Assembly: GCA_023432075.1 (NCBI GenBank)
Contig: JAEYVD010000520.1
Span: 1 to 13,832 of the forward strand
Length of the DNA stretch: 13,832 bases
Origin: Pseudomonadota bacterium
GTDB taxonomy: Bacteria; Pseudomonadota; Gammaproteobacteria; Burkholderiales; Burkholderiaceae_B
Reading direction: 5' to 3'
Position 1 is the first letter of the stretch; the number at the start of each line of letters is the position of its first letter. Below, one piece after another: positions 629 through 13,832 of the stretch. A model generated the notes under the pieces. That model saw only the letters and a program-made list of their open reading frames with translations. It did not search any database and was not told where the DNA came from. A program made the translations under genes and the position numbers.

Positions 629-681
629 GCGCCCACAGGGTTTATTGCCGCGCGCCAACAGGCCTCGGCTGGGTGTGCGAC

Positions 682-3600
682 ATGGATAGTGCTCCTCGCT
701 TCGAGGCAGTCAACGGAGCCCCTTTCGAGGTTCTTTGGGTGGATGGCGACCGGGTCTTCGGCCGCGGCGCTTCCACCCTTGCGGTCTGGCTGCGACCGAA
801 CGACAGTTCGGAATGCGCACGGCACCTGCTGGAACAGGAATACGGCCTGCGCGACTACCTGCATCCCGGCTGGGCCGCCGTGCCGACCGCGCTGGCGCGG
901 GTCGGCGGCTCCACCGTCCTCTATTTGCGGGACCCTGGCGGACAGCCCTTGGCGTCGCACCGCCCGCAGGCCATGCCCGCCGCAGCGTTTCTGCGCTTGG
1001 CCATCGCGGCGGCCAACGCCCTGGGCAAAATGCACAACGCCGGTCTGATTCACCGGAATCTCAAGCCGGCGCACATCCTCTTCAACGAGCATGACAAAGC
1101 CGCCCACCTGACCGGCTTTTCTTTTTCCACGCCGCTTGGGGCCTATCAGGCGGCGCCCGGCTCGCAGCCCGCCGACATCGTCGGCACCCTCGCCTACATG
1201 GCGCCTGAACAATCCGGCCGCGCCGGACATCGCGCCGACGCGCGCTCGGACCTGTATTCGCTGGGCGTCGTGCTCTACGAAGCCCTGACCGGCGAGCTGC
1301 CTTTTCAGGGCGAGTCGGCACTGACGTGGCTGCACAGCCATTCGGCGCGCGTGCCGGTAACGCCTGCCGAACGACGCAGCGGGATACCGGCCACCCTGTC
1401 GGCCATCGTCATGAAGCTGCTGGAAAAGTCGGCGGACGACCGGTATCAGACGGCGGAAGGGCTGGCGGCGGATCTGCAGTGCTGCCTGGCCGCGCTGATG
1501 ATGGACCCGGACGCCGCGCCGGATTTCGCGCTGGGCCGCTACGACCATCCTGGCCGCGTGCGCGTGCCCGCAACGCTGTACGGCAGGGGCGAAGAGCTTG
1601 ACGTCCTGCTGGGCGCCATGGGCCGGGTGGCGGGATCCGGGCGCGCCGAGGTCGTGCTCATCTCGGGCGAACCGGGTGTCGGCAAGTCCATCCTCATCGA
1701 AGAACTGCATCGCGTCGTCGGCAGCGAATACACCTTGCTTGCCAAGGGCAAGGGCGATCCCCACAGCCACGCCGGCCCCTACGCCGCACTGGTCGAGGCG
1801 GCAAGAGGCCTGCTTCAGGCCGTGCTTGCCAAGAACGAAAGCGACCTGGACGAGTGGCGGGAGAAGCTGCGCGTGGTCGTCTCGGCTGGCGGCGACAGCC
1901 TGCTGGCGCTGATTCCCGAACTGGCGCTGATCGTGCCGGACGCCTCGGGCCTGCTGGCCGAGGGGGACGCCAAGGCCCGGCTGCTCCTGGCCTTTCAGCA
2001 TCTGTTCTGCGCGTTCTCGGCGCCGGGCCATCCGCTGATCCTGTTCCTGGACGATCTTCAGTCGACCGACGCCGCGACCCTGCGCGTGATCGAACAGCTT
2101 GCGCAGACCGGTCTGCAGAACATCCTGGTCGTGGGCGTGTATCGGGTCGAAGACATGACGGCGCGCCACGCGCTGGCGGCGTTCATTACCGGCCTGCGGG
2201 CCAGCGCGATCCCCCTCACCGAACTCGCGCTTCACAATCTGCAGGAGCGCGACTGCGCCCACCTGATCGCCGATGCGCTGCAAAGCAGGTCGCCGTGGAT
2301 CGATCCGCTCGTCGCCCTGGTGCAGGCCAAGACGGCCGGCAATCCCTGCTTTGTGCTCCGGTTCCTGTCCACGCTCGCGGCCGAGGGACTGCTGCGCTAC
2401 GACGGGGCGCGCCAGCGCTGGCGCTGGGATGCGGCTGCCATCCGCGAACAGGCTTACACCGACAATGTGGTCGGCATCATCCTCCAGCAGGTCGAGCGTT
2501 TGCCGCGCGACAGCCGCGAGGCGATTCAGCACATGGCCTGCCTGGGGCACGATGCCTCACTGGACAAGTTGGCGTTGGCGCTGGACTGGCCGAGGCTCGA
2601 CGTGGCCACGGCGATGCGCGAGTGCGAGCGTCAAAGCCTCGTCTTTCGCAGCGGCGACGTGTACCGCTTTCCGCACGACCGGGTGCAGGCGGCAAGCTAT
2701 GCGCTGATTCCCGAACGGCAGCGCGCGGCCACGCACCTGTCGATCGGCCGGCGCCTGGCCCAGAACCTGGAACCCGAGCAACTGAAGGCGCGCGCCTTTG
2801 AACTGGTCGACCAGTTCAACCGCGCGTGGCAGCTTGTCCACAGCCTCGAAGAGCGCGTCCGGCTTGCCCATCTGAATGCCCTGGCCGGCGCGCTGGCCAA
2901 GGACACCGCCGACTATTCGGCCGCCATCCGCTATCTGGAAGCGGCCTCGGCATTCCTGTCCGGCGACGGCCGGCAGCGCGAGCCCACGCTTGCCTTCACG
3001 ATCGAGATCACCCGAGCCGAATGCGAATTGCGCAGCGGCGCGGTGGGCAGCGCCAAGCATCGGCTGGCCCGCCTTGATCAGCGCGATGCGCCTTTGCCGG
3101 AACTGGCCCGCGTGGCCCAGCTGCGCGTGGAAGTGTTCATGGCGCTGGGCGAGCGGCACGAGGCCATCCAAGCCGCGCTGCATTATCTTCGGCGCGCCGG
3201 CATCGACTGGACCGACAACCCTTCCGACGACGCCGTCTCGGACGAGTACGCCCAGTTCAATGCGCTGCGAGCGGGCCGGCCCGCGTCCGCGCTGCTGGAC
3301 CTGCCCACGATGGAGAATCAGCAAGCGCAAGCCACGATGGGCGTGTTGACCGCGCTGCTGCCCCCGGCCTGGACGCTCTTTGCGAACCTGCGCGAGCGCG
3401 TCATCCTGCGCATGGCCAACCTGAGCCTGCGCCACGGCAACACGGATGCCTCCAGCCTCGGGTATGCCTGGCTGGGCATGATCCTGGCCGCGCGCACGGG
3501 AGACTACGCCGACGGCTACGCCTTCGGCAAATTGGGCGTCGACCTGATCCAGCAGCGCGCGCAGGTCCGCTTCGCCGCGCGGGTCTATCAGGTTTTCGGC

Positions 3601-6141
3601 GGCCAGATCGTTCCCTGGTCGCAGCCGATCAGCGAGGCGCGCAACATGCTGCAGACCGCCTTCGAGCTGGCCAGCCAGCAGGGCGACTGGACCTATGCAT
3701 CCTTCGCGCTGAACAGCCTGGTCACGCACATGCTGGCCGCCGGCGGCGCGCTGGACACCATCCGCGCCGACGCCGGCCGCGGCCTGGCATTCGCGCGCAA
3801 GGCGGGGCTTGAAGTCCTGGACCGGTACACGTCGCAGCTGCAGCTGGCCAAGATGCTGCAAGGCATGACGCCGCATTTCGGCCTGCTGGACGACGCCGGA
3901 TTTAGCGAAGCCGATTTCGAGCGCAGGCTCCAGGCCGAGGCCGGCTGGAACGTCACGGCGTGCTGGCATTACCTGCGCAAGCTGCAGGCCAGGGTGTTCG
4001 TCGGCGATTTCCCGGACGCCGTGCGGGCAAGCGAGGACGCCTCGCGGTTCGTCTGGACGTCTCTGGCGTTTGTCGAGGAAATGGAGTTCCACTTCTACTC
4101 CGCGCTGGCGCACGCCTGGTGCCCCGCGCCCGCAAGTCCGGCCGGACAAGCCGCCACACTTTCGGCGATAGCCATCCATCTGGCGAAGCTGCGCCCGTGG
4201 GCCGCGTCCTGCCCGTCCAACTTCCAAAGCCAGCGGATGCTGATCGACGCCGAAGTCGCGCGGGTAAAGGGCGACATCCTGGACGCCATGCAGCGCTACG
4301 ACGACGCCATCCATTGCGCCAGCGATCACGGCCTCATTCACGTCGAAGGGCTGGCCAATGAATGCGCCGCGCGCTTCTTCGAAAGCCGTGGCCTGCAACG
4401 CATCGCGCATACGTATCTGCAACACGCGCGCGCCTGCTATCAGCACTGGGGCGCGTCGGGCAAGGTCAGGCAGATCGACGCCTTGCACCCCACGCTGTTC
4501 GTGGACCGCGGCAGCGCCGCGCACGGCTCCACCATCGAAACGCCGGTTGAGAGCCTGGATCTGGCCACCGTCATCGACATCTCCCGCGCGCTCGCCAGTG
4601 CGCTGGACCTGCAGACGCTGCTCGACCAGCTGATGAAGATCGCGCTGGAGCAGGCTGGCGCCACGCGCGGCGTGCTCGTCCTGCATGCCGATGGCGACCT
4701 GTATGTGCGCGCCATCGCCACCACGTCCGGCGACGCCGTCGCCGTCAGCCAGCACGCGCAGTCGCTGGACGAGGCCGGCCTGCCGCAGCAGATCGTGAAC
4801 TACGGCTGGCGCACCGGCGAAACCATCGTCCTGGACGATGCGTGGAGCGCGGGCGCCTTCACCGGCGACCCCTACGTGCGCGCCGCAAGGCTGCCGTCGG
4901 TGTTGTGCCTGGCGCTGACCACGCAGTCCAAATCCATCGGCGTGCTGTATTTGGAAAACACCCTGGCGCGCGGCGTCTTTGCGCCGCACCGCACCGCCGT
5001 GCTGCGCCTGCTGGCCTCGCAGGCCGCCATCGCGATCGAACGCGCGCGGCTATACCGTGACCTGGCGCAGCGAGAGGCCCGGATCCAACGCCTGGTCGAA
5101 GCCAACATCATCGGGATCTGGTTCTGGAGCACCGACGGGCAAGTGCTGGAGGCCAACGACCTCTTCCTGTCCATGACCGGTTACGACCGCGAGGACGTAA
5201 GTGCCGGCCGCTTGAGGTGGACCGCGCTTGTGTCGCGCGGCGGCCCGGTGTCGCTGGACGAGCTGCTGCTGCGCGAGACCGCCGAATCGGTGGAAACCGA
5301 ACTGATCCGCAAGGACGGCCGTCGCGTGCCCGTGCTGCTCGGCGCGGCACGGTTTGCCGCCGGCGACAACCAGGGCGTCTCGTTTGTGCTCGACCTGTCC
5401 GAGCGCAAGGCAGCGGAGACCAAGATGCAGCAGATCCAATCGGACCTCGCCCACGTCACCCGCATGACCACCGTCAGTTCGATGACCGCCTCCATCGCGC
5501 ACGATGTCAGCCAGCCGGTGTCGGCGGTGCTGACGGAAGCGCAGGCGGCGCTGAACTGGATTGCGCGCACCCCGCCCAACACCGAAGAGGTCGCGGAGTC
5601 ATTGCGGCGCATCGTGCAAAGCGGCCAACGCGCGGGGTCGATCATTTCCGGCGTGCGCGCGCTCATCAAGAAGGCGCCGACGGCCTTCGCCCCCATCGAA
5701 CTGAATGGACTCGTGAAGGAAACCCTGGCGCTGCTCGGAAGCGAGCTCGATTGCAGCGGCGTCGACCTCATCCTGGATCTGGCCGACGTGCCCCTGCACA
5801 CAAGCGGCGACCGCGTTCAGCTGCAGCAAGTCCTGCTCAATCTGTATGTCAATGCGGTCGATGCGATGAAGCAGGCCACCGGCGTGCGTCAGCTACGCGT
5901 CGTCACCCGGCCATCTTCACCGGACGAACTGCTGGTGGAAGTGCTTGATACCGGCAGCGGCATCGAGGCGGCGTCGGTGAAAAAGCTGTTCGATCCGTTC
6001 TTCACGACCAAGACCAAAGGCTTGGGCATGGGCCTGGCCATCTGCCGCGACATCATCCAGCTGCATCACGGCCAGATGTGGGCGCGGCCCAATAGCCCGG
6101 TGGGCGCGGTGTTCTATTTTTCGTTGCCCGCGCAGGCCTGA
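682..6141 (+). CDS. giant sensor: pseudokinase-like Ser/Thr kinase domain, AAA ATPase, helical repeats, GAF, PAS, histidine kinase
   Basis: The product is 1819 residues with no signal peptide or membrane segment, so it is probably cytoplasmic. Domains in order: a protein-kinase fold (about 10-270) with an APE motif at 174-176; an AAA_16/STAND-type ATPase with Walker A GEPGVGKS (329-336) and Walker B LFLDD (454-458); a long helical, TPR-like region (about 540-1290); GAF (about 1292-1460); PAS (about 1464-1577); a HisKA dimerisation domain with phospho-acceptor H1607 in 'IAHDVSQPV'; and an HATPase with N-box N1724, G1 DTGSG (1756-1760), F-box DPFFTT and G2 GLGMGL (1780-1785). This matches the known family of trifunctional kinase/ATPase/sensor histidine kinases. 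The histidine kinase motifs are intact. The Ser/Thr kinase part is not: the catalytic loop reads HRN (N126 in place of Asp), DFG is replaced by TGF (G145), and no VAIK lysine is seen. ATG 682 was chosen over in-frame GTG 673; neither has a strong ribosome binding site. It converges with the response regulator gene 11 bases away, its likely partner. The signal sensed is unknown. Confidence 0.93.
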   Translation: MDSAPRFEAVNGAPFEVLWVDGDRVFGRGASTLAVWLRPNDSSECARHLLEQEYGLRDYLHPGWAAVPTALARVGGSTVLYLRDPGGQPLASHRPQAMPAAAFLRLAIAAANALGKMHNAGLIHRNLKPAHILFNEHDKAAHLTGFSFSTPLGAYQAAPGSQPADIVGTLAYMAPEQSGRAGHRADARSDLYSLGVVLYEALTGELPFQGESALTWLHSHSARVPVTPAERRSGIPATLSAIVMKLLEKSADDRYQTAEGLAADLQCCLAALMMDPDAAPDFALGRYDHPGRVRVPATLYGRGEELDVLLGAMGRVAGSGRAEVVLISGEPGVGKSILIEELHRVVGSEYTLLAKGKGDPHSHAGPYAALVEAARGLLQAVLAKNESDLDEWREKLRVVVSAGGDSLLALIPELALIVPDASGLLAEGDAKARLLLAFQHLFCAFSAPGHPLILFLDDLQSTDAATLRVIEQLAQTGLQNILVVGVYRVEDMTARHALAAFITGLRASAIPLTELALHNLQERDCAHLIADALQSRSPWIDPLVALVQAKTAGNPCFVLRFLSTLAAEGLLRYDGARQRWRWDAAAIREQAYTDNVVGIILQQVERLPRDSREAIQHMACLGHDASLDKLALALDWPRLDVATAMRECERQSLVFRSGDVYRFPHDRVQAASYALIPERQRAATHLSIGRRLAQNLEPEQLKARAFELVDQFNRAWQLVHSLEERVRLAHLNALAGALAKDTADYSAAIRYLEAASAFLSGDGRQREPTLAFTIEITRAECELRSGAVGSAKHRLARLDQRDAPLPELARVAQLRVEVFMALGERHEAIQAALHYLRRAGIDWTDNPSDDAVSDEYAQFNALRAGRPASALLDLPTMENQQAQATMGVLTALLPPAWTLFANLRERVILRMANLSLRHGNTDASSLGYAWLGMILAARTGDYADGYAFGKLGVDLIQQRAQVRFAARVYQVFGGQIVPWSQPISEARNMLQTAFELASQQGDWTYASFALNSLVTHMLAAGGALDTIRADAGRGLAFARKAGLEVLDRYTSQLQLAKMLQGMTPHFGLLDDAGFSEADFERRLQAEAGWNVTACWHYLRKLQARVFVGDFPDAVRASEDASRFVWTSLAFVEEMEFHFYSALAHAWCPAPASPAGQAATLSAIAIHLAKLRPWAASCPSNFQSQRMLIDAEVARVKGDILDAMQRYDDAIHCASDHGLIHVEGLANECAARFFESRGLQRIAHTYLQHARACYQHWGASGKVRQIDALHPTLFVDRGSAAHGSTIETPVESLDLATVIDISRALASALDLQTLLDQLMKIALEQAGATRGVLVLHADGDLYVRAIATTSGDAVAVSQHAQSLDEAGLPQQIVNYGWRTGETIVLDDAWSAGAFTGDPYVRAARLPSVLCLALTTQSKSIGVLYLENTLARGVFAPHRTAVLRLLASQAAIAIERARLYRDLAQREARIQRLVEANIIGIWFWSTDGQVLEANDLFLSMTGYDREDVSAGRLRWTALVSRGGPVSLDELLLRETAESVETELIRKDGRRVPVLLGAARFAAGDNQGVSFVLDLSERKAAETKMQQIQSDLAHVTRMTTVSSMTASIAHDVSQPVSAVLTEAQAALNWIARTPPNTEEVAESLRRIVQSGQRAGSIISGVRALIKKAPTAFAPIELNGLVKETLALLGSELDCSGVDLILDLADVPLHTSGDRVQLQQVLLNLYVNAVDAMKQATGVRQLRVVTRPSSPDELLVEVLDTGSGIEAASVKKLFDPFFTTKTKGLGMGLAICRDIIQLHHGQMWARPNSPVGAVFYFSLPAQA

Positions 6142-6152
6142 GTCATCCGGCC

Positions 6153-6833
6153 TTATTCGCCGTCACCGTCGCCATCGCCTCGCGTTTGCAGCGCGTGCGC
6201 GGCGACCCGCGGATTGACCTTCATGATCCGCTGCACCAGCTGCGCAAAGCTGCGCGCCTGCATCTTGCGGTAGGCGCTTGCCCGATGCGCCTTGACGGTC
6301 ACCTCGCTGATGCCCAATTGCTGCGCGACTTCCTTGTTCAGGCAGCCGGACGCAATCATCTCGATCACCTGCTGTTCGCGCGCCGTCAATGATCGGTACA
6401 GCGCCAGAATCTTCTCGAATTCCTGCTCCTTGGCGCGCCGCGCGGCATCGGATTCCAACGCGCGATGCACGGAGTCCAGCAGCCGCTGCTCGGAAATGGG
6501 CTTTTCCAGAAAATCGATCGCACCGGCCTTCATCGCCTTGACCGTCTGCCGGATATCCCCAAAGCCCGTCACCACCACGATGGGAATGAGATCGCCCACC
6601 TCGCGCAGGCGGGCCTGCAACGCCAGCCCGTCGCCGTCGGACAGTTGGAGGTCCAGGATCAGGCAGGAAGGCACCTGGGGACGCGCCGCAGCCTGGAAGG
6701 CGCTGATCGAGTCGAAGGTCTCGGCATGGATGCCGATCGACGAGAGCAGGCGGAACAGCGAATGGCTGACCTCGGGGTGGTCGTCGACGATGTAGACGAT
6801 CGCCGAGGGCGCGCCCGGTTTGTGTATGTTCAA
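6153..6833 (-). CDS. FixJ/NarL-type response regulator with TTG start
   Basis: The 226-residue product has a receiver domain followed by a LuxR-type helix-turn-helix. In the receiver, the acidic pair is D17/D18, the phospho-acceptor is D61 ('LILDLQLSDGDG'), the switch residue is T89 and the conserved lysine is K111 ('EKP'). The DNA-binding domain (about 155-212) carries 'LTAREQQVIEMIASG' and 'EVTVKAHRASAYRKM', typical of the FixJ/TodT branch. The start is TTG at 6831-6833, chosen because a perfect AAGGAG lies 8 bases upstream, the receiver begins about 11 residues later, and there is no in-frame ATG before the receiver core. The longer frame extending to 7169 overlaps the hydrolase gene and is a shadow. 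Its tail-to-tail position with the histidine kinase implies that it is that kinase's phosphorylation target and a DNA-binding transcription factor; its target genes are unknown. Confidence 0.92.
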   Translation of the reverse strand: MNIHKPGAPSAIVYIVDDHPEVSHSLFRLLSSIGIHAETFDSISAFQAAARPQVPSCLILDLQLSDGDGLALQARLREVGDLIPIVVVTGFGDIRQTVKAMKAGAIDFLEKPISEQRLLDSVHRALESDAARRAKEQEFEKILALYRSLTAREQQVIEMIASGCLNKEVAQQLGISEVTVKAHRASAYRKMQARSFAQLVQRIMKVNPRVAAHALQTRGDGDGDGE

Positions 6834-6841
6834 CGCTATGA

Positions 6842-6847
6842 CTCCTT
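6842..6847 (-). promoter_or_regulatory. Shine-Dalgarno site (AAGGAG) that fixes the TTG start
   Basis: On the minus strand AAGGAG is followed by 8 bases and then TTG at 6833. It is the strongest ribosome binding site in the window and decides the rare start codon of the response regulator. Confidence 0.75.
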
Positions 6848-6921
6848 GCGAGGCGGACAGGCTCCGATGGTTTCGTGCCTCGCATGCCGCGTGGGGCGGC
6901 CATCCCACGACAAATGCGGCG

Positions 6922-6950
6922 ATTTTAAGCGTTATTAACTGTCCCTCTAA
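6922..6950 (-). promoter_or_regulatory. candidate sigma70-type promoter for the response regulator
   Basis: On the minus strand TTAGAG (6945-6950) is followed by 17 bases and TAAAAT (6922-6927). The -10 matches consensus in five of six positions, but the -35 is poor. It lies in the AT-rich part of the 125-base gap between the hydrolase stop and the regulator start, giving a leader of roughly 80 bases. No terminator for the hydrolase gene was seen in this gap. Confidence 0.3.
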
Positions 6951-6958
6951 TTCGCAGA

Positions 6959-8158
6959 TCAGCCAGCGGCAGGCGAGGCGCTGGTGGCGTCGCGCAGCGC
7001 CAGGATAAACGCATTGAGGCCCGCGTCGCGGTCGGGTTCGTTCGCACTCAGGTAACGCGGCTCCGGGTAGGCCGCAAGCTGCACCACCGCCAGTTGCGCG
7101 CGCGTGTCGATGAAGATGCGCTGGCCGGAATGGCCCATCGCCATCATGGCGCCGTCCTCGCGCAGCCACCAGCTATAGCCGTAGGCCGTGAGTCCGAGCG
7201 CCTGGCGCTGCGCCGTATGCAAGTCGGCCGGAATCCGGAACGCCGGCGTGCCCGACTGCGCAACCCATCCCTCGGGCAGGATGCGTTCACCATTGGCCAC
7301 GCCATCATCGAGCACGAATTGGGCAAAGCGGCCCATGTCGCGCAGCGTCATGCCGGCGCGGCTGCCGCCGATCTCCTGGCCACCGTCGGATTCCAAGGTG
7401 TAAAAGCCGTCGAACTCCATCCCGCAAGGCTGCCAGATGCGGCGCGACATGTAATCGGCCAGCGTACCGCCGGTCGCCGCGCTCAGCACGGCGCCCAGCA
7501 AGTATGTATCGCCGGTGTTGTAGTGCCAGAAGCGTCCCGCCTCATGGGCGCGATGGCACCCGCGCAACAGCGCCAGCACGCCACCCGGCACCTTGTCGGC
7601 CAGCGACTTGCTGTAGCGGTTCACGTCGGACGCCTTGTCCGTGTAGTTTTCTTCCCAGGCAATGCCCGACGACATGGTGAGCAGATGCCGGACCGTGACC
7701 GCATCGTAGGCGCAGCCGGCCAGCGCCGGCACATAGGCGGTGACCGGATCGTCAAGGCTGCCGATGGCGCCGTCATGCAGGGCCGCGCCGGTCAGCATGG
7801 CGGTCATGGATTTCACTGTCGACATGGTGGACCAGCGTTCGTGCGGCTGAAAGCCCAGACCATAGCGTTCCAACACGACGTGACCGCGATGAATCGCGAT
7901 CAGGGCCGCCACGTTGTTACGGTCCATCAGGTCACCCACGCCCAGCATCTCGCCGTCCTGCGCGAACCGCACGTCGATTTCGGGCGCGCGCGGCAGAGGC
8001 CGGGGCGTGGCCCCGCGCTGGATGGTGCGGGTGGCAAACAGGCGGTCGACGATGCGGTAGCCATACGATTGCAGGCATGGCGGCCACAGCAGGAAATCTT
8101 CCGCGCGCGGCAGGTGTTCCACGGCCTCGGCCAGCGGCGGGGTGGGGATAGCGTTCAT
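6959..8158 (-). CDS. beta-lactamase-fold serine hydrolase (class C / 6-aminohexanoate-dimer hydrolase-like)
   Basis: The 399-residue product belongs to the beta-lactamase/transpeptidase-like family (PF00144, COG1680). The nucleophile motif is S113-T-V-K116, the tyrosine motif is Y213-N-T-G-D-T, and the third motif is H343-S-G345 ahead of a beta strand ('RIFID'). These are the three active-site elements of the fold, which in this branch usually serves amide or ester hydrolysis rather than antibiotic resistance. No signal peptide is seen, so a cytoplasmic location is likely. ATG 8158 was chosen because GAGG sits 5 bases upstream and the preceding in-frame residues run back through a terminator hairpin. 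It follows the Bug gene on the same strand and may hydrolyse an imported amide or ester related to that protein's ligand; this is inference. The substrate is unknown. Confidence 0.88.
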   Translation of the reverse strand: MNAIPTPPLAEAVEHLPRAEDFLLWPPCLQSYGYRIVDRLFATRTIQRGATPRPLPRAPEIDVRFAQDGEMLGVGDLMDRNNVAALIAIHRGHVVLERYGLGFQPHERWSTMSTVKSMTAMLTGAALHDGAIGSLDDPVTAYVPALAGCAYDAVTVRHLLTMSSGIAWEENYTDKASDVNRYSKSLADKVPGGVLALLRGCHRAHEAGRFWHYNTGDTYLLGAVLSAATGGTLADYMSRRIWQPCGMEFDGFYTLESDGGQEIGGSRAGMTLRDMGRFAQFVLDDGVANGERILPEGWVAQSGTPAFRIPADLHTAQRQALGLTAYGYSWWLREDGAMMAMGHSGQRIFIDTRAQLAVVQLAAYPEPRYLSANEPDRDAGLNAFILALRDATSASPAAG

Positions 8159-8170
8159 GAATGCCTCAAG

Positions 8171-8193
8171 AAAAAACCGGGCGCGCGGCCCGG
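8171..8193 (-). terminator. Rho-independent terminator after the Bug gene
   Basis: On the minus strand, CCGGGC pairs perfectly with GCCCGG around a 5-base loop (stem arms 8188-8193 and 8177-8182), followed directly by six T residues (8171-8176). It starts 6 bases beyond the Bug stop codon. The T-run ends only 3 bases before the GAGG ribosome binding site of the downstream hydrolase, so hydrolase expression needs read-through or a promoter inside the terminator region. Confidence 0.88.
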
Positions 8194-8199
8194 CACTGA

Positions 8200-9216
8200 T
8201 CAGTCGTTGCGGATGCCAAGGCGCTTCACGATGGGCCCCCATACCTCGGCCTCGGTCTTCATCGATTGCGCCACCGACTCGGGGCCGAGCGCCTTGGGCG
8301 GCGTCATGTAGATCTCGTCCATCTGCTTGCGCACCGCCGGATCGGCCCAGAATTTGCGGGTGGCATCGGTCAGGCGCGTCACGATCTCGGGCGGCGTACC
8401 CTTGGGCGCCATCAGGCCATACCAGGCATCGCCCGGAAAGCCCTGCACGCCGACCTCCGCAATGGTGGGCACGTTGGGCAACTGCGCAACGCGATCGGTA
8501 CCGAAGATCACCAGCGGCACGGCCTTGCCGGTCTTCACTTGCGGCACCGCGCCGGTCAGGGCGTCAGCGGTCAGGTCGATCTGGCCGCCGATCAAGTCCA
8601 TCATGGCCGGCGCCGCCCCTTTATATGGCACGTGCGACATCTCGATCTTGAAGTGTTCGGCCAGGAAAGCGACGTTCAGGTGGGTGGAATTGCCGATGCC
8701 CGCCGAGCCGTAATTCAGGTGGCCCGGATTGGCCTTCGCCTTCTTCACCAGATCCTCCACCGACCGGATGCCGGTCGCGGGATTGGCCACCAGCACCTGC
8801 GAGGTGCCGGCGATCTTCGTGATCGGTTCGAAATCGCGTGTCGGGTTGTAGGCCAACTGCGCGTAGGTGAACGGATTGACCGACATGTTGGAGGTGCTGC
8901 CAAAAAGCAGCGCGTAGCCGTCCGCCGGCTGCTTGGCCACGAACGCGGCGGCAATGCTGCCATTGGCGCCGGGCTTGTTCTCCACCACGACGGTGCCGCC
9001 GATTTCCTTACTGGCATAGGCAGCCCAGGCGCGTGCCAGTGCGTCGGCGGCGCCGCCCGCAGCCACCGGCACAACGACCGACACCGGCCTCACGGGCCAA
9101 TCTGCGGCCGTGGCCGGTGCGGTAATAGCCACGGCCAGCGTCCCGGCCGCGGCCAGGCTCAACAGCCGTTGAACGAAGCGGGAATTCGACTGCGGGGAGG
9201 GCAAATCGCGGGCCAT
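8200..9216 (-). CDS. Bug/TctC-family periplasmic solute-binding protein
   Basis: The 338-residue product has a Sec signal peptide (about 1-38: basic n-region, 'LLSLAAAGTLAVAITA' core, cleavage near ATAA/DWP). The mature part opens with 'WPVRPVSVVVPVAAGGAADALAR', split here as WPVRP and PVAAGGAADALAR, the family signature in which the first loop grips a carboxylate. Further marks are 'VVENKPGANGSIAA', 'LLFGSTS' and 'HVPYKGAAPAMMDLIGGQID'. The family binds small carboxylates or amides for tripartite tricarboxylate transporters or for signalling. No TctA/TctB membrane genes are in the window, so this is an orphan member, as is usual in Bordetella-like genomes. ATG 9216 was chosen because GGAG lies 9 bases upstream and the signal peptide is then of normal length. 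It is transcribed divergently from the LysR gene at 9340, its probable regulator, and ends at a strong terminator. Confidence 0.93.
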   Translation of the reverse strand: MARDLPSPQSNSRFVQRLLSLAAAGTLAVAITAPATAADWPVRPVSVVVPVAAGGAADALARAWAAYASKEIGGTVVVENKPGANGSIAAAFVAKQPADGYALLFGSTSNMSVNPFTYAQLAYNPTRDFEPITKIAGTSQVLVANPATGIRSVEDLVKKAKANPGHLNYGSAGIGNSTHLNVAFLAEHFKIEMSHVPYKGAAPAMMDLIGGQIDLTADALTGAVPQVKTGKAVPLVIFGTDRVAQLPNVPTIAEVGVQGFPGDAWYGLMAPKGTPPEIVTRLTDATRKFWADPAVRKQMDEIYMTPPKALGPESVAQSMKTEAEVWGPIVKRLGIRND

Positions 9217-9274
9217 GGCCTGTGCTCCAGAGGAAATCGGACGATGAAGAACCGCATTCTGGAAGCGCTTTTTC

Positions 9275-9293
9275 ATTACGTCCAATGCATAAT
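9275..9293. promoter_or_regulatory. candidate LysR operator between the Bug and LysR genes
   Basis: ATTA-N11-TAAT forms a dyad in the 123-base divergent intergenic region. The spacing fits the T-N11-A rule for LysR-type sites, and the position suits autoregulation plus control of the Bug gene. Short arms and AT-rich context keep confidence low. Confidence 0.35.
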
Positions 9294-9339
9294 TCATCAT
9301 CATTCCATAATCAGCGCGTAATAAAACCAGGGGCCGCGG

Positions 9340-10263
9340 ATGAATCTTCAACAGCTCGAACACTTCCTCGTGCTGGTCGAAACCCGCTCTTTCAGCCGCG
9401 CGGCGGCCAAATTGCATCTGACGCAACCCGCGCTCAGCCGCAGCATTCAGGCGCTGGAAGACACGTTGGGCGGACGCCTGCTGGAGCGCGACAAAGGGAA
9501 AACACTGACCGCGTTAGGCGAACTGGCCATCGTGCGTGCTCGGCGGATCCGCGTGGAATTGGCTGAATTGCGGCGTAGCGCCAGCCTGCTGGCGGACTAC
9601 GCGGGCGGCACGCTGCGGCTGGGATTGGGTCCCACGCCCACGGCAATCCTGTCGCTGCCGCTCTTGCGCGACATGAAGGAACGCTACCCGGCCATCAAGC
9701 TGCTGCTGAGCGGCGGCACGCCCGAGATGCAGGTCCAGGAACTGCGCGAAGGCGCCGTGGACGCCCTGGTGGTGCATCGCAATCACATCCCGGCCGACCC
9801 CGACCTGCATCTGCGCTTCTTTCCGCGCACCCCGCTGGGCTTCGTGGTGCGCGCCGGCCATCCGCTGGCCGGCAAGAACGGCCTGGACTTCGATGCGCTG
9901 CGCCGCTACGCCGTGGCAGCCAGCGGCCGCGCCATGAGCGACGAGGTAATGCACCGGCTCAATGCGTACTTCGGACCGCCGGTGCATTTCATCGACGCGA
10001 TCCAGTACCAGTCCAACGACATCCAGGCGCTGGTCGATCTGGTGCGCACCACGGACACGGTCTTCTTTGGCGTGCTGCGCGTGGCGCAGCCGGCCATCGC
10101 GCGCGGCGAACTGGTGCATGTCGACGTGCGCCCGACGTTGGAGCTGTCGTCGCAGTTCGTCTTCGTGACGCTCGAGGGCAAGACCCTGCCCCCCGCGTTG
10201 CTGCGGCTCAGCGAGCTATGCATGGGGTACATGTCAGGCGCTGAAGATCCGCAGCCTGACTAA
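9340..10263 (+). CDS. LysR-family transcriptional regulator
   Basis: The 307-residue product has the standard N-terminal winged helix-turn-helix (about 2-60, 'FSRAAAKLHLTQPALSRSI' at residues 18-36) and a periplasmic-binding-like effector domain from about residue 90. ATG 9340 has AGGGG 6 bases upstream. The divergent Bug gene is the likely target, and by family habit the effector would be the ligand of the Bug protein or of the hydrolase, but nothing in the sequence names it. The gene converges with the MetR-like gene 46 bases further on. Confidence 0.92.
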   Translation: MNLQQLEHFLVLVETRSFSRAAAKLHLTQPALSRSIQALEDTLGGRLLERDKGKTLTALGELAIVRARRIRVELAELRRSASLLADYAGGTLRLGLGPTPTAILSLPLLRDMKERYPAIKLLLSGGTPEMQVQELREGAVDALVVHRNHIPADPDLHLRFFPRTPLGFVVRAGHPLAGKNGLDFDALRRYAVAASGRAMSDEVMHRLNAYFGPPVHFIDAIQYQSNDIQALVDLVRTTDTVFFGVLRVAQPAIARGELVHVDVRPTLELSSQFVFVTLEGKTLPPALLRLSELCMGYMSGAEDPQPD

Positions 10264-10309: not shown

Positions 10310-11221
10310 TCACCGCGTGGCAGACGTGGCATTCGCAGCCGCAGGCTGCCGCGCCATCTCGATGAAGGCCCGCTGGTAATCCAGGGCGTCGTCCGCCTCT
10401 CGCGACCCCAGAAAGATCTGCTTGGCGATGCCGCGCGCGCCCAGCCGCACCGGCACCACGTCCATCTTGGCGGCGTACTCCTCGACCAGCCAGCGTGGCA
10501 GCGCGGCCACGCCGCGGCCGCTGGCCACCATCTGCAGCATGATGTCGGTGGTCTCGATCGCCTTGTGCCGCTTGGGCGTGACGCCCGCCTTCAAGAGGAA
10601 CTGGTTGTAGATATCCAGCCGCTCGATATCGACGGGGTAGCTGATGAGCACTTCCTGCGTCAGCTGTTCGGGCTTCACGTACGCGACCGATGCCAAGGGG
10701 TGGCCCTTGGCCACGACCAGCACCTGCTCGTAATCGAACACCGGTTCGAACTTCAATCCCGGCTTGAACAACGGGTCGGGGGTGACCAGCAGGTCGATCT
10801 CGTAGCCGAACAGGGCGCCGATGCCGCCGAACTGGAATTTCTGCTTGACGTCCACGTCCACGTCGGGCCACGCCGCCAGATAGGGCGCAACCACCTTGAG
10901 CAGCCACTGATAGCAGGGATGGCATTCCATGCCGATGCGCAGCGCGCCGCGTTCGCCCTGGGCGAACTGGCCCAGCCGCTCTTCGGCCAGATCCAGCTGC
11001 GGCAACACCCGGTTCGCCACCGCCAGCAGATACTGGCCGGCCTGCGTCAGGCGAAGCCGTCTTCCTTCACGCAGCCAGATGTCGGTGCCTAGCTGCTGCT
11101 CCAGCTTTTTCATGCTGTGGCTCAACGCCGATTGGGTCAGGTTCAGCACGCCCGCCGCGGCGGTCAGTGAGCCTTCCTTCTCGACCTGCTGCACGATGCT
11201 CAGATGGATACGTTCAAGCAT
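10310..11221 (-). CDS. metR: MetR-like LysR-family transcriptional regulator
   Basis: The 303-residue LysR protein has a helix-turn-helix at about 18-37 ('SLTAAAGVLNLTQSALSHS'). Its effector domain resembles enterobacterial MetR in several places: 'ECHPCYQWL' (99-107) matches the ECHSCIQWL region of MetR, and 'PVFDYEQVLVVAKGHPLA', a 'YPV...RLD' stretch and 'QMVASGRGVAALPRW' also correspond. MetR is an activator of methionine genes that uses homocysteine as co-inducer. Here the gene is divergent from the FMN reductase/MesX/MesD genes, so control of homocysteine methylation is a natural reading. The start at 11221 has only a weak ribosome binding site. The symbol rests on recalled similarity; orthology in the strict sense is not proven. 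Confidence 0.85.
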   Translation of the reverse strand: MLERIHLSIVQQVEKEGSLTAAAGVLNLTQSALSHSMKKLEQQLGTDIWLREGRRLRLTQAGQYLLAVANRVLPQLDLAEERLGQFAQGERGALRIGMECHPCYQWLLKVVAPYLAAWPDVDVDVKQKFQFGGIGALFGYEIDLLVTPDPLFKPGLKFEPVFDYEQVLVVAKGHPLASVAYVKPEQLTQEVLISYPVDIERLDIYNQFLLKAGVTPKRHKAIETTDIMLQMVASGRGVAALPRWLVEEYAAKMDVVPVRLGARGIAKQIFLGSREADDALDYQRAFIEMARQPAAANATSATR

Positions 11222-11235
11222 TTCTATGATCTAGA

Positions 11236-11251
11236 TTCATGGATTTGTGAA
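11236..11251. promoter_or_regulatory. dyad TTCA-N8-TGAA, possible MetR-like binding site
   Basis: This inverted repeat lies 15 bases from the metR start. If the promoter at 11262-11290 is real, it would sit near -50 to -60, where LysR proteins usually bind their recognition site. It is not the enterobacterial MetR consensus TGAA-N5-TTCA, whose arms are in the opposite order. Confidence 0.35.
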
Positions 11252-11252
11252 A

Positions 11253-11265
11253 TAAAACCATTTTA
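11253..11265. promoter_or_regulatory. dyad TAAAA-N3-TTTTA next to the candidate -35 box
   Basis: A perfect 5-bp inverted repeat with a 3-base centre and T-N11-A ends. It overlaps the candidate -35 of the msuE promoter, where an activation site would be expected. AT-rich composition makes chance occurrence possible. Confidence 0.3.
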
Positions 11266-11290
11266 CGTCATGGATATTGATCTTTAGCAT
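11262..11290 (+). promoter_or_regulatory. candidate sigma70-type promoter for msuE-mesX-mesD
   Basis: TTTACG (11262-11267) and TAGCAT (11285-11290) are separated by 17 bases, each matching consensus in four of six positions. This would start transcription near 11297 and leave a leader of about 100 bases containing the palindrome at 11322. Confidence 0.35.
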
Positions 11291-11321
11291 TGCATTCTTT
11301 GTTTGCCGCTGTGTTCCGCAC

Positions 11322-11336
11322 GTTGATCTGATCAAC
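11322..11336. promoter_or_regulatory. perfect 15-bp palindrome GTTGATC-T-GATCAAC, likely operator
   Basis: The two 7-base arms are perfectly complementary around one central T, and the inner part has LysR T-N11-A spacing (TTGATCTGATCAA). It lies 58 bases upstream of the msuE start in the divergent region shared with the MetR-like gene. A regulator site is the best reading; with a 1-base loop it is unlikely to act as an RNA hairpin. Confidence 0.55.
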
Positions 11337-11394
11337 ACGCATGTTCCATGGCAAGTCGACCCCTTTCGTGCCGATTGGCTCCATGGAAGCAAAG

Positions 11395-11982
11395 ATGACA
11401 CACCCCCTGCGACTGGTCGCCGTTTCCGGCGGCCTGCAACGTCCCTCCAAGACCACCGCCCTGGCAGAGCAGCTGCTGGCGCTGATTGCCAACGAAATCC
11501 CCTGCGAACCCCGCCTGGTCGAAATGGGCCGGCTGGCCCCGCAGCTCGCCGGCGCCGTGTGGCGCTCGCAGTTGCCTGACACGGTGGAGCGCGAGTTGGC
11601 GGCAGTCGAGCAAGCCGATGTCCTGGTGGTGGCAACGCCCGTCTACCGGGGCTCCTACACCGGCCTATTCAAGCATTTCTTCGATTTCATTCATCAGGAC
11701 GCCTTGATCGACAAGCCCGTCCTCTTGGCCGCCACCGGCGGCAGCCAGCGCCATGCGCTGGTGATCGACCACCAATTGCGGCCGTTGTTCAGCTTCTTCC
11801 AGGCACGCACGCTGCCGCTTGGCATCTACGCGACCGATGAGGACTTCGTCGACTACCGCCTGCAGAACGACGCGCTGATCCAGCGGGCCGGCCTGGCGGT
11901 CCAGCGCGCCCTGCCGCTGGTCGAACTGACGCGGCATGCACGCGCCGCTGCAGCCGCAGCCGAAGAAGCCTTGGCGGCCTGA
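11395..11982 (+). CDS. msuE: MsuE-like NAD(P)H-dependent FMN reductase
   Basis: The 195-residue flavodoxin-fold product closely follows MsuE-type FMN reductases as I recall them: 'LVAVSGGLQRPSKT' (phosphate-binding loop, 11-20), 'PVYRGSYTGLFKHFFD' (82-97), 'LLAATGGSQRHALVIDHQL' and 'PLFSFFQA'. Such enzymes reduce free FMN with NAD(P)H and hand it to a separate flavin- and oxygen-dependent enzyme; MsuE itself serves methanesulfonate monooxygenase. ATG 11395 is preferred because GGAAG lies 5 bases upstream and the family begins just before the 'VAVSGG' strand; in-frame ATGs at 11341 and 11383 would add unneeded residues. No sulfonate monooxygenase is nearby; instead the next genes are mesX and mesD, 98 bases on. 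A role in supplying reduced flavin to MesX or a related step is inference. Confidence 0.9.
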   Translation: MTHPLRLVAVSGGLQRPSKTTALAEQLLALIANEIPCEPRLVEMGRLAPQLAGAVWRSQLPDTVERELAAVEQADVLVVATPVYRGSYTGLFKHFFDFIHQDALIDKPVLLAATGGSQRHALVIDHQLRPLFSFFQARTLPLGIYATDEDFVDYRLQNDALIQRAGLAVQRALPLVELTRHARAAAAAAEEALAA

Positions 11983-12080
11983 CGCCGGGCCCCCCTTACC
12001 GATCGCCGGACAGGCAGCGCACGCTGATCGTGCCGGCAACGAATTCACGTTTATCGCAGCATTTTTGGCATCCGACCACC

Positions 12081-13067
12081 ATGAGCCACGACTTCACCTT
12101 CAGCATCAAGAGCATCCGCTTCGATGAAAACTATCAGCCGTCGGACAGCACGCGCATCACGACCAACTTCGCCAATCTGGCCCGAGGCGCCAGCCGCGAG
12201 GAAAACCTGCGCAACACGCTGAAGATGATCGACAGCCGTTTCAATGACCTGGCGCATTGGGACAACCCCACGGGCGAGCGCTACGCCGTGGAACTGGACA
12301 TCATCACCGCCGAGATGACGTTGGGCGAAAGCGGCAACGGCACGGCGTTTCCGCTGATCGAAATGCTCAAGACCAATATCGTCGACAAGCAGACGAACAA
12401 ACGCATCGACGGCATCGTCGGGAACAACTTCTCGTCCTACGTGCGCGACTACGATTTCAGCGTGCTGCTGCCCGAGCACAACGACAACAAGGCCGCGTTC
12501 AGCACACCGGAAGATTTTGGCGACCTGCACGGCAAGCTCTTCAAGCACTTCGTGCAATCGCAGGCCTACCAGGCGCACTTTGCGAAGCCGCCGGTCATCT
12601 GCATCAGCGTGTCCAGCAGCAAGACCTACCATCGCACCGACAACCACCACCCGATCCTGGGCGTGGAATATCAGCAAAGCGAATTCTCCTCGACCGATCA
12701 CTACTTCGAGAAGATGGGCCTGCAGGTCCGCTACTTCATGCCGCCCAATAGCGTTGCGCCGCTGGCGTTCTACTTCCAGGAAGACCTCTTGGGCGCCTAC
12801 ACCAATCTTGAACTCATCGGCACGATCAGCACGATGGAAGCGTTCCAGCGCATCTATCGGCCCGAAATCTACAACGCCAACTCGGCCGCCGGAAAGCGCT
12901 ATCAACCCAGCCTGAAAAACCAGGATTACTCGCTGACGCAGATCGTCTACGACCGCGTCGAACGCAGCCAGCTCGCCATCAAGCAGGGCAAGTTTGCCGA
13001 GGCCCACTTCATCAAGCCGTACAAGCACGTGCTCGATCAATGGGCTGCCAGCTGCGCCCATCAATAA
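12081..13067 (+). CDS. mesX: DUF1852 protein MesX, partner of MesD methionine synthase
   Basis: The 328-residue soluble protein starts 'MSHDFTFSIKSIRFDENYQP' and belongs to the DUF1852 family, recognised from this opening, its length and its place just before a MetE-like gene. It has no signal peptide or membrane segment. Published work on folate-independent methionine synthases, as I recall it, named this family MesX and showed that MesD needs it, together with oxygen. Its own chemistry is unknown. A histidine-rich stretch 'YHRTDNHH' (183-190) and H207 in 'STDHYFE' could form a metal site, but this is only a suggestion. The start at ATG 12081 fits the family; no good ribosome binding site precedes it, and an in-frame GTG at 12030 looks too long. 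The stop is 26 bases before mesD, so the two are surely co-transcribed. Confidence 0.88.
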   Translation: MSHDFTFSIKSIRFDENYQPSDSTRITTNFANLARGASREENLRNTLKMIDSRFNDLAHWDNPTGERYAVELDIITAEMTLGESGNGTAFPLIEMLKTNIVDKQTNKRIDGIVGNNFSSYVRDYDFSVLLPEHNDNKAAFSTPEDFGDLHGKLFKHFVQSQAYQAHFAKPPVICISVSSSKTYHRTDNHHPILGVEYQQSEFSSTDHYFEKMGLQVRYFMPPNSVAPLAFYFQEDLLGAYTNLELIGTISTMEAFQRIYRPEIYNANSAAGKRYQPSLKNQDYSLTQIVYDRVERSQLAIKQGKFAEAHFIKPYKHVLDQWAASCAHQ

Positions 13068-13093
13068 ACCAAAAACAGACGGACACTTTCGCC

Positions 13094-13832
13094 ATGAAAA
13101 AAATCTTGCCCACCTCGACCGCCGGCAGCCTGCCCAAACCATCCTGGCTTGCCCAGCCTGAAAAGCTCTGGTCGCCCTGGAGTCTGCAAGGCGAACAACT
13201 GGCCGAAGGCAAACGGGATGCGCTGCTCCTGGCTTTGAAAGAACAGGAGCTGGCCGGCATCGATATCGTCAGCGACGGCGAGCAGACGCGCCAGCACTTC
13301 GTCACCACGTTCATCGAACACCTGGACGGCGTTGACTTCGAAAAGCGCGAGACCGTCCGGATCCGCGACCGCTACGACGCCAGCGTGCCCACCGTTGTGG
13401 GCGCCGTCAGCCGCCAGAAACCCGTGTTCGTCGAAGACGCCAAGTTCCTGCGGCAGCAGACGAAGCAGCCCATCAAATGGGCGCTGCCCGGTCCCATGAC
13501 CATGATCGACACGCTGTACGACGCCCACTACAAGAGCCGCGAAAAGCTGGCCTGGGAATTCGCCAAGATCCTCAACCAGGAAGCGCGCGAACTGGAAGCC
13601 GCCGGCGTCGACATCATCCAGTTCGACGAGCCCGCCTTCAACGTCTTCTTCGACGAGGTGAACGACTGGGGCGTCGCAACGCTGGAGCGCGCAATCGAAG
13701 GCCTCAAGTGCGAAACCGCCGTGCACATCTGCTACGGCTACGGCATCAAGGCCAACACCGACTGGAAGAAGACGCTGGGATCGGAATGGCGCCAGTACGA
13801 GGAGTCGTTCCCCAAGCTGCAGAAATCCAGCA
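13094..13832 (+). CDS. mesD: MesD-type core methionine synthase, N-terminal part (3' end outside window)
   Basis: 246 codons are visible before the window ends. The protein begins at once with the catalytic MetE C-terminal-type barrel ('LPTSTAGSLPKPSWL', 5-19) and lacks the long N-terminal folate-binding domain of MetE. Other barrel marks are D61-G-E63, 'LPGPMTMIDTLYD' (131-143), 'IIQFDEPAF' (174-182, acid D178 probably contacts homocysteine) and H211-x-C213, the first two ligands of the catalytic zinc; the remaining ligands lie beyond the window. The reaction is methyl transfer to homocysteine giving methionine. Placement right after mesX points to the MesD family, which works without methyl-folate or cobalamin; the methyl donor is not known. 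ATG 13094 gives the family's usual start. Confidence 0.88.
   Translation, partial: MKKILPTSTAGSLPKPSWLAQPEKLWSPWSLQGEQLAEGKRDALLLALKEQELAGIDIVSDGEQTRQHFVTTFIEHLDGVDFEKRETVRIRDRYDASVPTVVGAVSRQKPVFVEDAKFLRQQTKQPIKWALPGPMTMIDTLYDAHYKSREKLAWEFAKILNQEARELEAAGVDIIQFDEPAFNVFFDEVNDWGVATLERAIEGLKCETAVHICYGYGIKANTDWKKTLGSEWRQYEESFPKLQKSS

Follow-up and report, generated by a model that had tools for sequence, protein, structure and literature searches.

Does the flavin reductase MsuE serve MesX? A probable MetR-controlled methionine operon and its relatives

Why should a flavin mononucleotide (FMN) reductase be encoded next to a methionine synthase which uses no folate? This question is raised by the 13,832-nucleotide stretch analysed here (contig JAEYVD010000520.1 of a Pseudomonadota bacterium, Burkholderiaceae_B; hereafter the window), which ends with the genes msuE, mesX, and mesD, divergent from a gene for a MetR-like regulator. 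Genetic data show that MesD needs MesX and oxygen, and neither MetF nor cobalamin (Price 2021; PMC7857596). Strains with MesD tolerate nitrous oxide (PMC13059711). Price 2021 described mesD and mesX as often located near a putative flavin reductase, and predicted that MesX uses flavin and oxygen and that it supplies the methyl group (PMC7857596). Publications on the chemistry of MesX were not found in a search of open-access journal papers. The link between reductase and MesX, which the first-pass annotation of the window had put forward as its own, is thus already in print; it is supported here by a dedicated MsuE clade and by co-occurrence. We consider it fairly probable that the window carries a MetR-controlled methionine operon, msuE-mesX-mesD, in which MsuE serves MesX with reduced FMN. 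MsuE is replaceable, as many MesX loci use a PF01613-type reductase or have neither.

The mesX-linked MsuE is a specialised clade which tracks MesX, and this is the new result of our survey. In a midpoint-rooted tree of 50 MsuE proteins, which has some long branches, the 33 copies linked to mesX group together (support 99/97) with a copy that is not linked to mesX, from a further MesX genome (G191); 16 other copies fall outside this clade. All 17 unlinked copies were from genomes that carry MesX. Among 300 Burkholderiales genomes, MesX was found in 11 and MsuE (E value 1e-40 or better) in 15, seven of which have MesX; the chance of this is 5e-8, uncorrected for relatedness. Upon omission of G002, the centre genome, which was chosen and has MesX, six of 14 MsuE genomes have MesX (6e-7 at the same E value, again uncorrected). 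MsuE with at least 68% identity occurs in four of the 300 genomes, all with MesX and three with the two genes adjacent. This set includes G002 by construction; without it, three of three have MesX (chance 3e-5, likewise uncorrected for relatedness and with an identity cut that was chosen after seeing the data). The next MsuE, at 64%, also comes from a genome with MesX, and the following five, at 57-61%, come from genomes without it.

The surroundings of mesX were compared in three samples. For the plasmid sample, 12 mesX loci were mapped, taken from the 209 plasmid records in which a match was found. The named sample comprises the best 80 of at least 592 confirmed genome loci (MesX 71-91% identical to the query), which lean to the kin of the window because they score best. 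The second sample, nominally phylum-wide and with G002 as its centre, has MesX in 49 of 397 genomes; judged by the nearest named MesX relatives it seems rich in kin of Vibrio, Pseudoalteromonas, and Pantoea/Erwinia, so that its percentages are not transferable to beta-proteobacteria. One locus (L016) is shared by the named set and the second sample. Neighbours were counted from -1500 to +3000 or +4000 bases relative to the mesX start, with score floors of 200 and 100 bits. PF01613 was confirmed directly on two example reductases and the others were assigned by homology. Rows from short contigs were kept: L089, which has 1671 bases past the mesX start and is cut downstream, was scored as having neither reductase, and L072, L087, L129, and L132 are also cut. 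The neighbourhoods of 24 further MsuE or methylenetetrahydrofolate reductase (MTHFR) copies were read by eye, except for the luciferase-type monooxygenases and the folD gene named below.

MsuE adjoins mesX at 28 of the 80 named loci, 25 of which also have a MetR-like gene there, at five of 49 second-sample loci and at none of the 12 plasmid loci. A PF01613-type reductase, which belongs to a family unrelated to MsuE, adjoins mesX at 33/80, 2/49, and 4/12 loci, respectively. No locus in any of the three sets has both, and neither is present at 19 named and eight plasmid loci. The reductase-mesX association is real yet lineage-bound, and two reductase families apparently fill one role. Searches of whole genomes at the family cut-off are in agreement: MsuE was found in nine of 20 genomes, mostly from named loci. 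PF01613 was found in 20/20 of these, in 45/49 second-sample genomes, and in 13/14 controls; because the controls are also positive, its genome-wide presence says little.

In the window itself, the genes were identified by family searches (Table 1). Its msuE passes the curated cut-off for MsuE (TIGR03566; 258.3 vs. 212.5 bits), the PF08908 model "Putative oxygenase MesX" spans all of MesX (positions 1-323 of 323, 616.1 bits), and mesD exceeds the cut-off of NF006589 (519.8 vs. 392 bits). MesD has the catalytic domain of methionine synthase without a folate-binding domain and is encoded next to mesX. The window holds 246 codons of mesD and stops short of the last zinc and homocysteine ligand expected from MetE; the full length is 342 amino acids in two relatives (L206, L207). 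For the LysR-type gene, the best NCBIfam model is MetR (NF011950), which scores 226.9 bits where the equivalog cut-off is 382; the regulator is therefore called MetR-like. MesX of the window is 96% identical to that of Achromobacter mucicolens, which suggests an Achromobacter-like host. The divergent gene order is found again in named relatives, so that the arrangement is not due to chance; together with the family matches, this bears out the description of the locus in the first-pass annotation.

Table 1. Features of the msuE-mesX-mesD region, with positions in the window.
Feature	Position	Strand	Basis and remarks
MetR-like LysR regulator	10310..11221	-	NF011950 (MetR) below cut-off; PF00126 and PF03466; homologues adjoin mesX in relatives
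candidate MetR box TGATCTAGATTCA	11227..11239	+	one mismatch vs. TGAANNNNNTTCA
msuE, mesX-type FMN reductase	11395..11982 (open frame from 11341)	+	TIGR03566, PF03358; likely start, by homology; mesX-linked clade
mesX (PF08908, DUF1852), putative oxygenase and putative methyl supplier	12081..13067	+	PF08908; likely start, by homology (alignment)
mesD, core methionine synthase	13094..13832, cut by window end	+	NF006589, PF01717

MetR senses homocysteine in better-known bacteria (PMC4239095), and the consensus of the MetR box, TGAANNNNNTTCA, has been published (PMC13393422, PMC3353975). Taken alone, the box in the window is not significant (three matches vs. 2.23 expected). Of 40 regions that border a divergently oriented MetR-like gene (one of them from the window), 39 contain a box with no more than one mismatch, against 4.28 expected from mononucleotide shuffles, and eight contain an exact box (0.19 expected); in 25 of the 40, the box is located 6 bases from the start of the regulator frame. 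A set of 110 loci with mesX and without msuE, which partly overlaps the 40 and contains near relatives and a broken copy (L142), has exact boxes 5' of mesX at 37 loci (0.65 expected, in-gene control 2/110). Boxes with at most one mismatch are found at 89/110 loci (14.45 expected), a count which is weak because the in-gene control reached 42/110, and the exact count was used instead. These results agree with Leyn 2014, where PF08908-metE2 is among the well-conserved MetR targets (PMC4239095), and with the repression of mesX by vitamin B12 in Acinetobacter baumannii, where B12 lowers mesX (log2 -8.3) and a flavin reductase gene two tags away (log2 -2.5) (PMC12892962). The window resembles the regulon of Leyn 2014 in its candidate MetR box and in the predicted MetR control of mesX-mesD, and differs from it in being a beta-proteobacterial case. 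In two Alcaligenes loci (L031, L038), metE is located between the MetR-like gene and mesX-mesD, and both cobalamin-independent systems are adjacent.

How might the parts act together? A build-up of homocysteine, as under B12 shortage, would let MetR switch on msuE-mesX-mesD. MesX and oxygen would then make or carry a methyl group, which MesD would put on homocysteine, and MsuE, a dedicated relative of the MsuE enzymes for sulfonates and sulfones, most likely would hand reduced FMN to MesX. Elsewhere the reduced-flavin job would apparently also be done by a PF01613 reductase or by the general reductases of the cell. Both the flavin transfer and the function of MesX as an oxygenase are our inference. 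The systems of Price 2021 are like the window in having both proteins, their order, a nearby flavin reductase, and aerobic hosts (PMC7857596); in the window, the reductase is of the MsuE type and encoded upstream, and a MetR-like gene is divergent from it.

Several observations weigh against this reading. Neither reductase family adjoins mesX at 42 of 49 second-sample loci, and seven of the 11 Burkholderiales MesX genomes are devoid of a mesX-type MsuE. The first-pass annotation had looked to a conserved msuE-mesX-mesD neighbourhood and to a co-occurrence of msuE and mesX above expectation: the former exists in some lineages and the latter in the 300 Burkholderiales, but 42 of 49 second-sample MesX genomes have no MsuE above the cut-off at all (seven have one). 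It is from their spacing only (98 bp between msuE and mesX, 26 bp between mesX and mesD) that msuE and mesX are predicted to be co-transcribed, and the regulator stays under the cut-off for MetR. Escherichia coli has other flavin reductases. There, mesX and mesD alone rescue metE and metF mutants (PMC7857596), and a dedicated MsuE is thus not required in that host. Finally, the structure model of MesX, although confident (predicted local distance difference test, pLDDT, 87.9), gives no clear match to known folds, flavoenzymes included, upon structure comparison.

The last point bears on the chief rival to a flavin-using MesX, which is a metal site. MesX would then be a metal-dependent oxygenase, e.g., with non-haem iron on His150, His190, and Glu196, and the reductase would keep the metal reduced. 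These three residues are invariant among 50 aligned MesX sequences, and a fold that matches nothing clearly does not identify a flavoenzyme; yet many further polar residues are equally invariant across the same sequences, and on balance we consider a metal enzyme unlikely. It is also conceivable that msuE is only a passenger which serves methionine or sulfur metabolism in general and travels with the operon without acting on MesX. This would account for the absence of MsuE beside mesX at 52/80 named and 44/49 second-sample loci and for the fact that mesX and mesD are enough in E. coli (PMC7857596). An MsuE clade that tracks MesX, and a PF01613 reductase that substitutes for it in the same neighbourhood, argue instead for a shared need for a reductase, and a passenger role appears rather improbable to us.

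The first-pass annotation had a further proposal, namely that the reductase drives the oxidation of a methylated compound, perhaps a methyl-sulfur one, the methyl group of which reaches homocysteine. The window msuE belongs to the same family (TIGR03566) as the MsuE/SsuE reductases of two-component sulfur monooxygenases, and relatives of MsuE do adjoin luciferase-type monooxygenases: four neighbours of unlinked MsuE copies, hand-picked as luciferase-type-like, were confirmed as such. However, homologues of three of these four were found at none of 142 mesX loci, the window included (E value 1e-8, within the fetched flanks). The mesX-linked MsuE differs from MsuE/SsuE in its separate clade, and no partner gene of this type was found at its loci. 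Moreover, B12 raises sfnG and another msuE in A. baumannii while it lowers mesX (PMC12892962), and E. coli on M9 glucose provides the donor (PMC7857596). The proposal gains no support, and we regard it as highly improbable. The supply of reduced FMN from MsuE to MesX is the reading that we retain.

An unexpected companion of mesX, given that MesD needs no methyl-folate, is a non-canonical MTHFR paralogue, which is present at 24 of the 80 named loci, once as a remnant (examples from mesX loci are L015, L017, L018, L025, L033, L040, L052, L055, L058, L063, L075, and L080, among others). It exists in two forms. The short form of about 290 amino acids (PF02219, 41.9 bits) has 7xg9 as its nearest solved structure (E value 1e-73), which we take to be the enzyme of Sphingobium SYK-6 (the PDB listing says only methylenetetrahydrofolate reductase). 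It occurs at 19/80 named loci (in L016 as a C-terminal remnant only) and at 4/49 second-sample loci (L016 again). In Janthinobacterium, Stenotrophomonas, Xanthomonas, Hydrogenophaga, and Corticibacter, it is located beyond the MetR-like gene, directly or past queH; in Stenotrophomonas mori it is present without a MetR-like gene, and in one Rhizobium it follows mesX-mesD-reductase. The long form of about 490 amino acids (PF02219 and PF12225 in the one that was scanned) occurs at 5/80 named and 3/49 second-sample loci. It follows a PF01613-type reductase at three Burkholderia loci (one on the opposite strand) and in two Achromobacter species. In three genomes of the second sample it is found upstream, in divergent orientation, and in one of these its frame is broken. 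The window is devoid of the short paralogue, and no MTHFR remnant was found in it.

Genes for MTHFR, MetH, and MetE were searched in 40 chosen MesX genomes. Canonical MetF is present in all 40 (270-376 bits), and in the 21 genomes with an intact or nearly intact MTHFR at the locus, this is always a second, low-scoring hit (under the cut-off in G421, which also has a third MTHFR hit with 114 bits). Among the 19 other genomes, G011 and G006 carry a low-scoring MTHFR elsewhere, that of G011 about 1.6 kb from metE. MetH exceeds the cut-off in 39/40 and MetE in 16/40 genomes; S. mori (G423, draft) has neither, and keeps MetF and the short paralogue. In the MTHFR tree, which has long branches, 20 linked short forms group with the G191 copy (97/96) and the Rhizobium one is placed elsewhere; the L016/L207 remnant was excluded from the trees. 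The 300 Burkholderiales contain two close copies of the short form (77% identity), both in genomes with MesX, one being a remnant in the centre genome, without which the count is one of one (chance 0.03). Their 13 other short-form homologues (30-38% identity) are all from genomes without MesX, and one adjoins folD. For the long form, the one match in this set (41% identity) is from a genome without MesX and gives no support. Absence of MetE is not significantly associated with an MTHFR at mesX, neither for the short form (10/13 genomes vs. 14/27 others, p 0.18) nor for any form (14/21 vs. 10/19, p 0.52).

What could such a paralogue do? In Xanthomonadales there are two metF paralogues, one of them under MetR (PMC4239095), and the MTHFR of Sphingobium SYK-6 oxidises methyltetrahydrofolate (PMC12585457; see also PMC13001107). 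We tentatively suggest that when B12 is short and MetH stops, trapping the methyltetrahydrofolate made by canonical MetF, the MTHFR paralogue might run backwards to free folate, with MesX-MesD using another methyl source; we hold this to be possible, though doubtful. In a bolder variant, the paralogue may help to supply the carbon which MesX turns into methyl. The G011 copy near metE fits an ordinary supplier of methyltetrahydrofolate. Relief of the folate trap, if true, would explain why a folate gene, in two MTHFR forms, stands beside a folate-independent methionine operon.

A TauE exporter and QueH were considered as functional parts of the system and dropped, since they recur at some loci only; a TauE/SafE-type exporter gene is divergent from mesX in the Vibrio/Pseudoalteromonas-like loci L002, L012, L126, L149, L161, L162, and L168. 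At 11 loci (L018, L020, L026, L027, L036, L046, L054, L064, L072, L076, L079), mesD is 57-59% and mesX 73-77% identical to that of the window, and by sequence these mesD represent a divergent MesD subfamily of Comamonadaceae and others. At L141 (genome G102), a divergent mesX-msuE-mesD block has msuE between mesX and mesD and is flanked by two identical transposase frames of 310 amino acids in opposite orientation; G102 has a second, broken mesX (L142). The contig of L029 is labelled Bacillus subtilis SK6B4, and its mesX region is 94% identical over 2932 bases to that of Pseudochrobactrum L024; it is probably mislabelled or contaminated. Elsewhere in the window, positions 673-6141 encode a kinase/AAA/GAF/PAS/histidine-kinase protein of 1822 amino acids, which faces a gene for a FixJ-like response regulator (6153-7169). 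The minus strand encodes a beta-lactamase-fold hydrolase (6959-8242) and a TctC-type receptor (8200-9426), and beside the latter is a second LysR gene (9340-10263), convergent on the MetR-like gene.

MsuE is unsuitable as a general marker of the MesX-MesD system. That reduced flavin is needed is suggested by the dedicated clade and by the substitute reductase; this narrows the question of the methyl donor of MesD, and the MTHFR paralogues provide a second handle on this same question.

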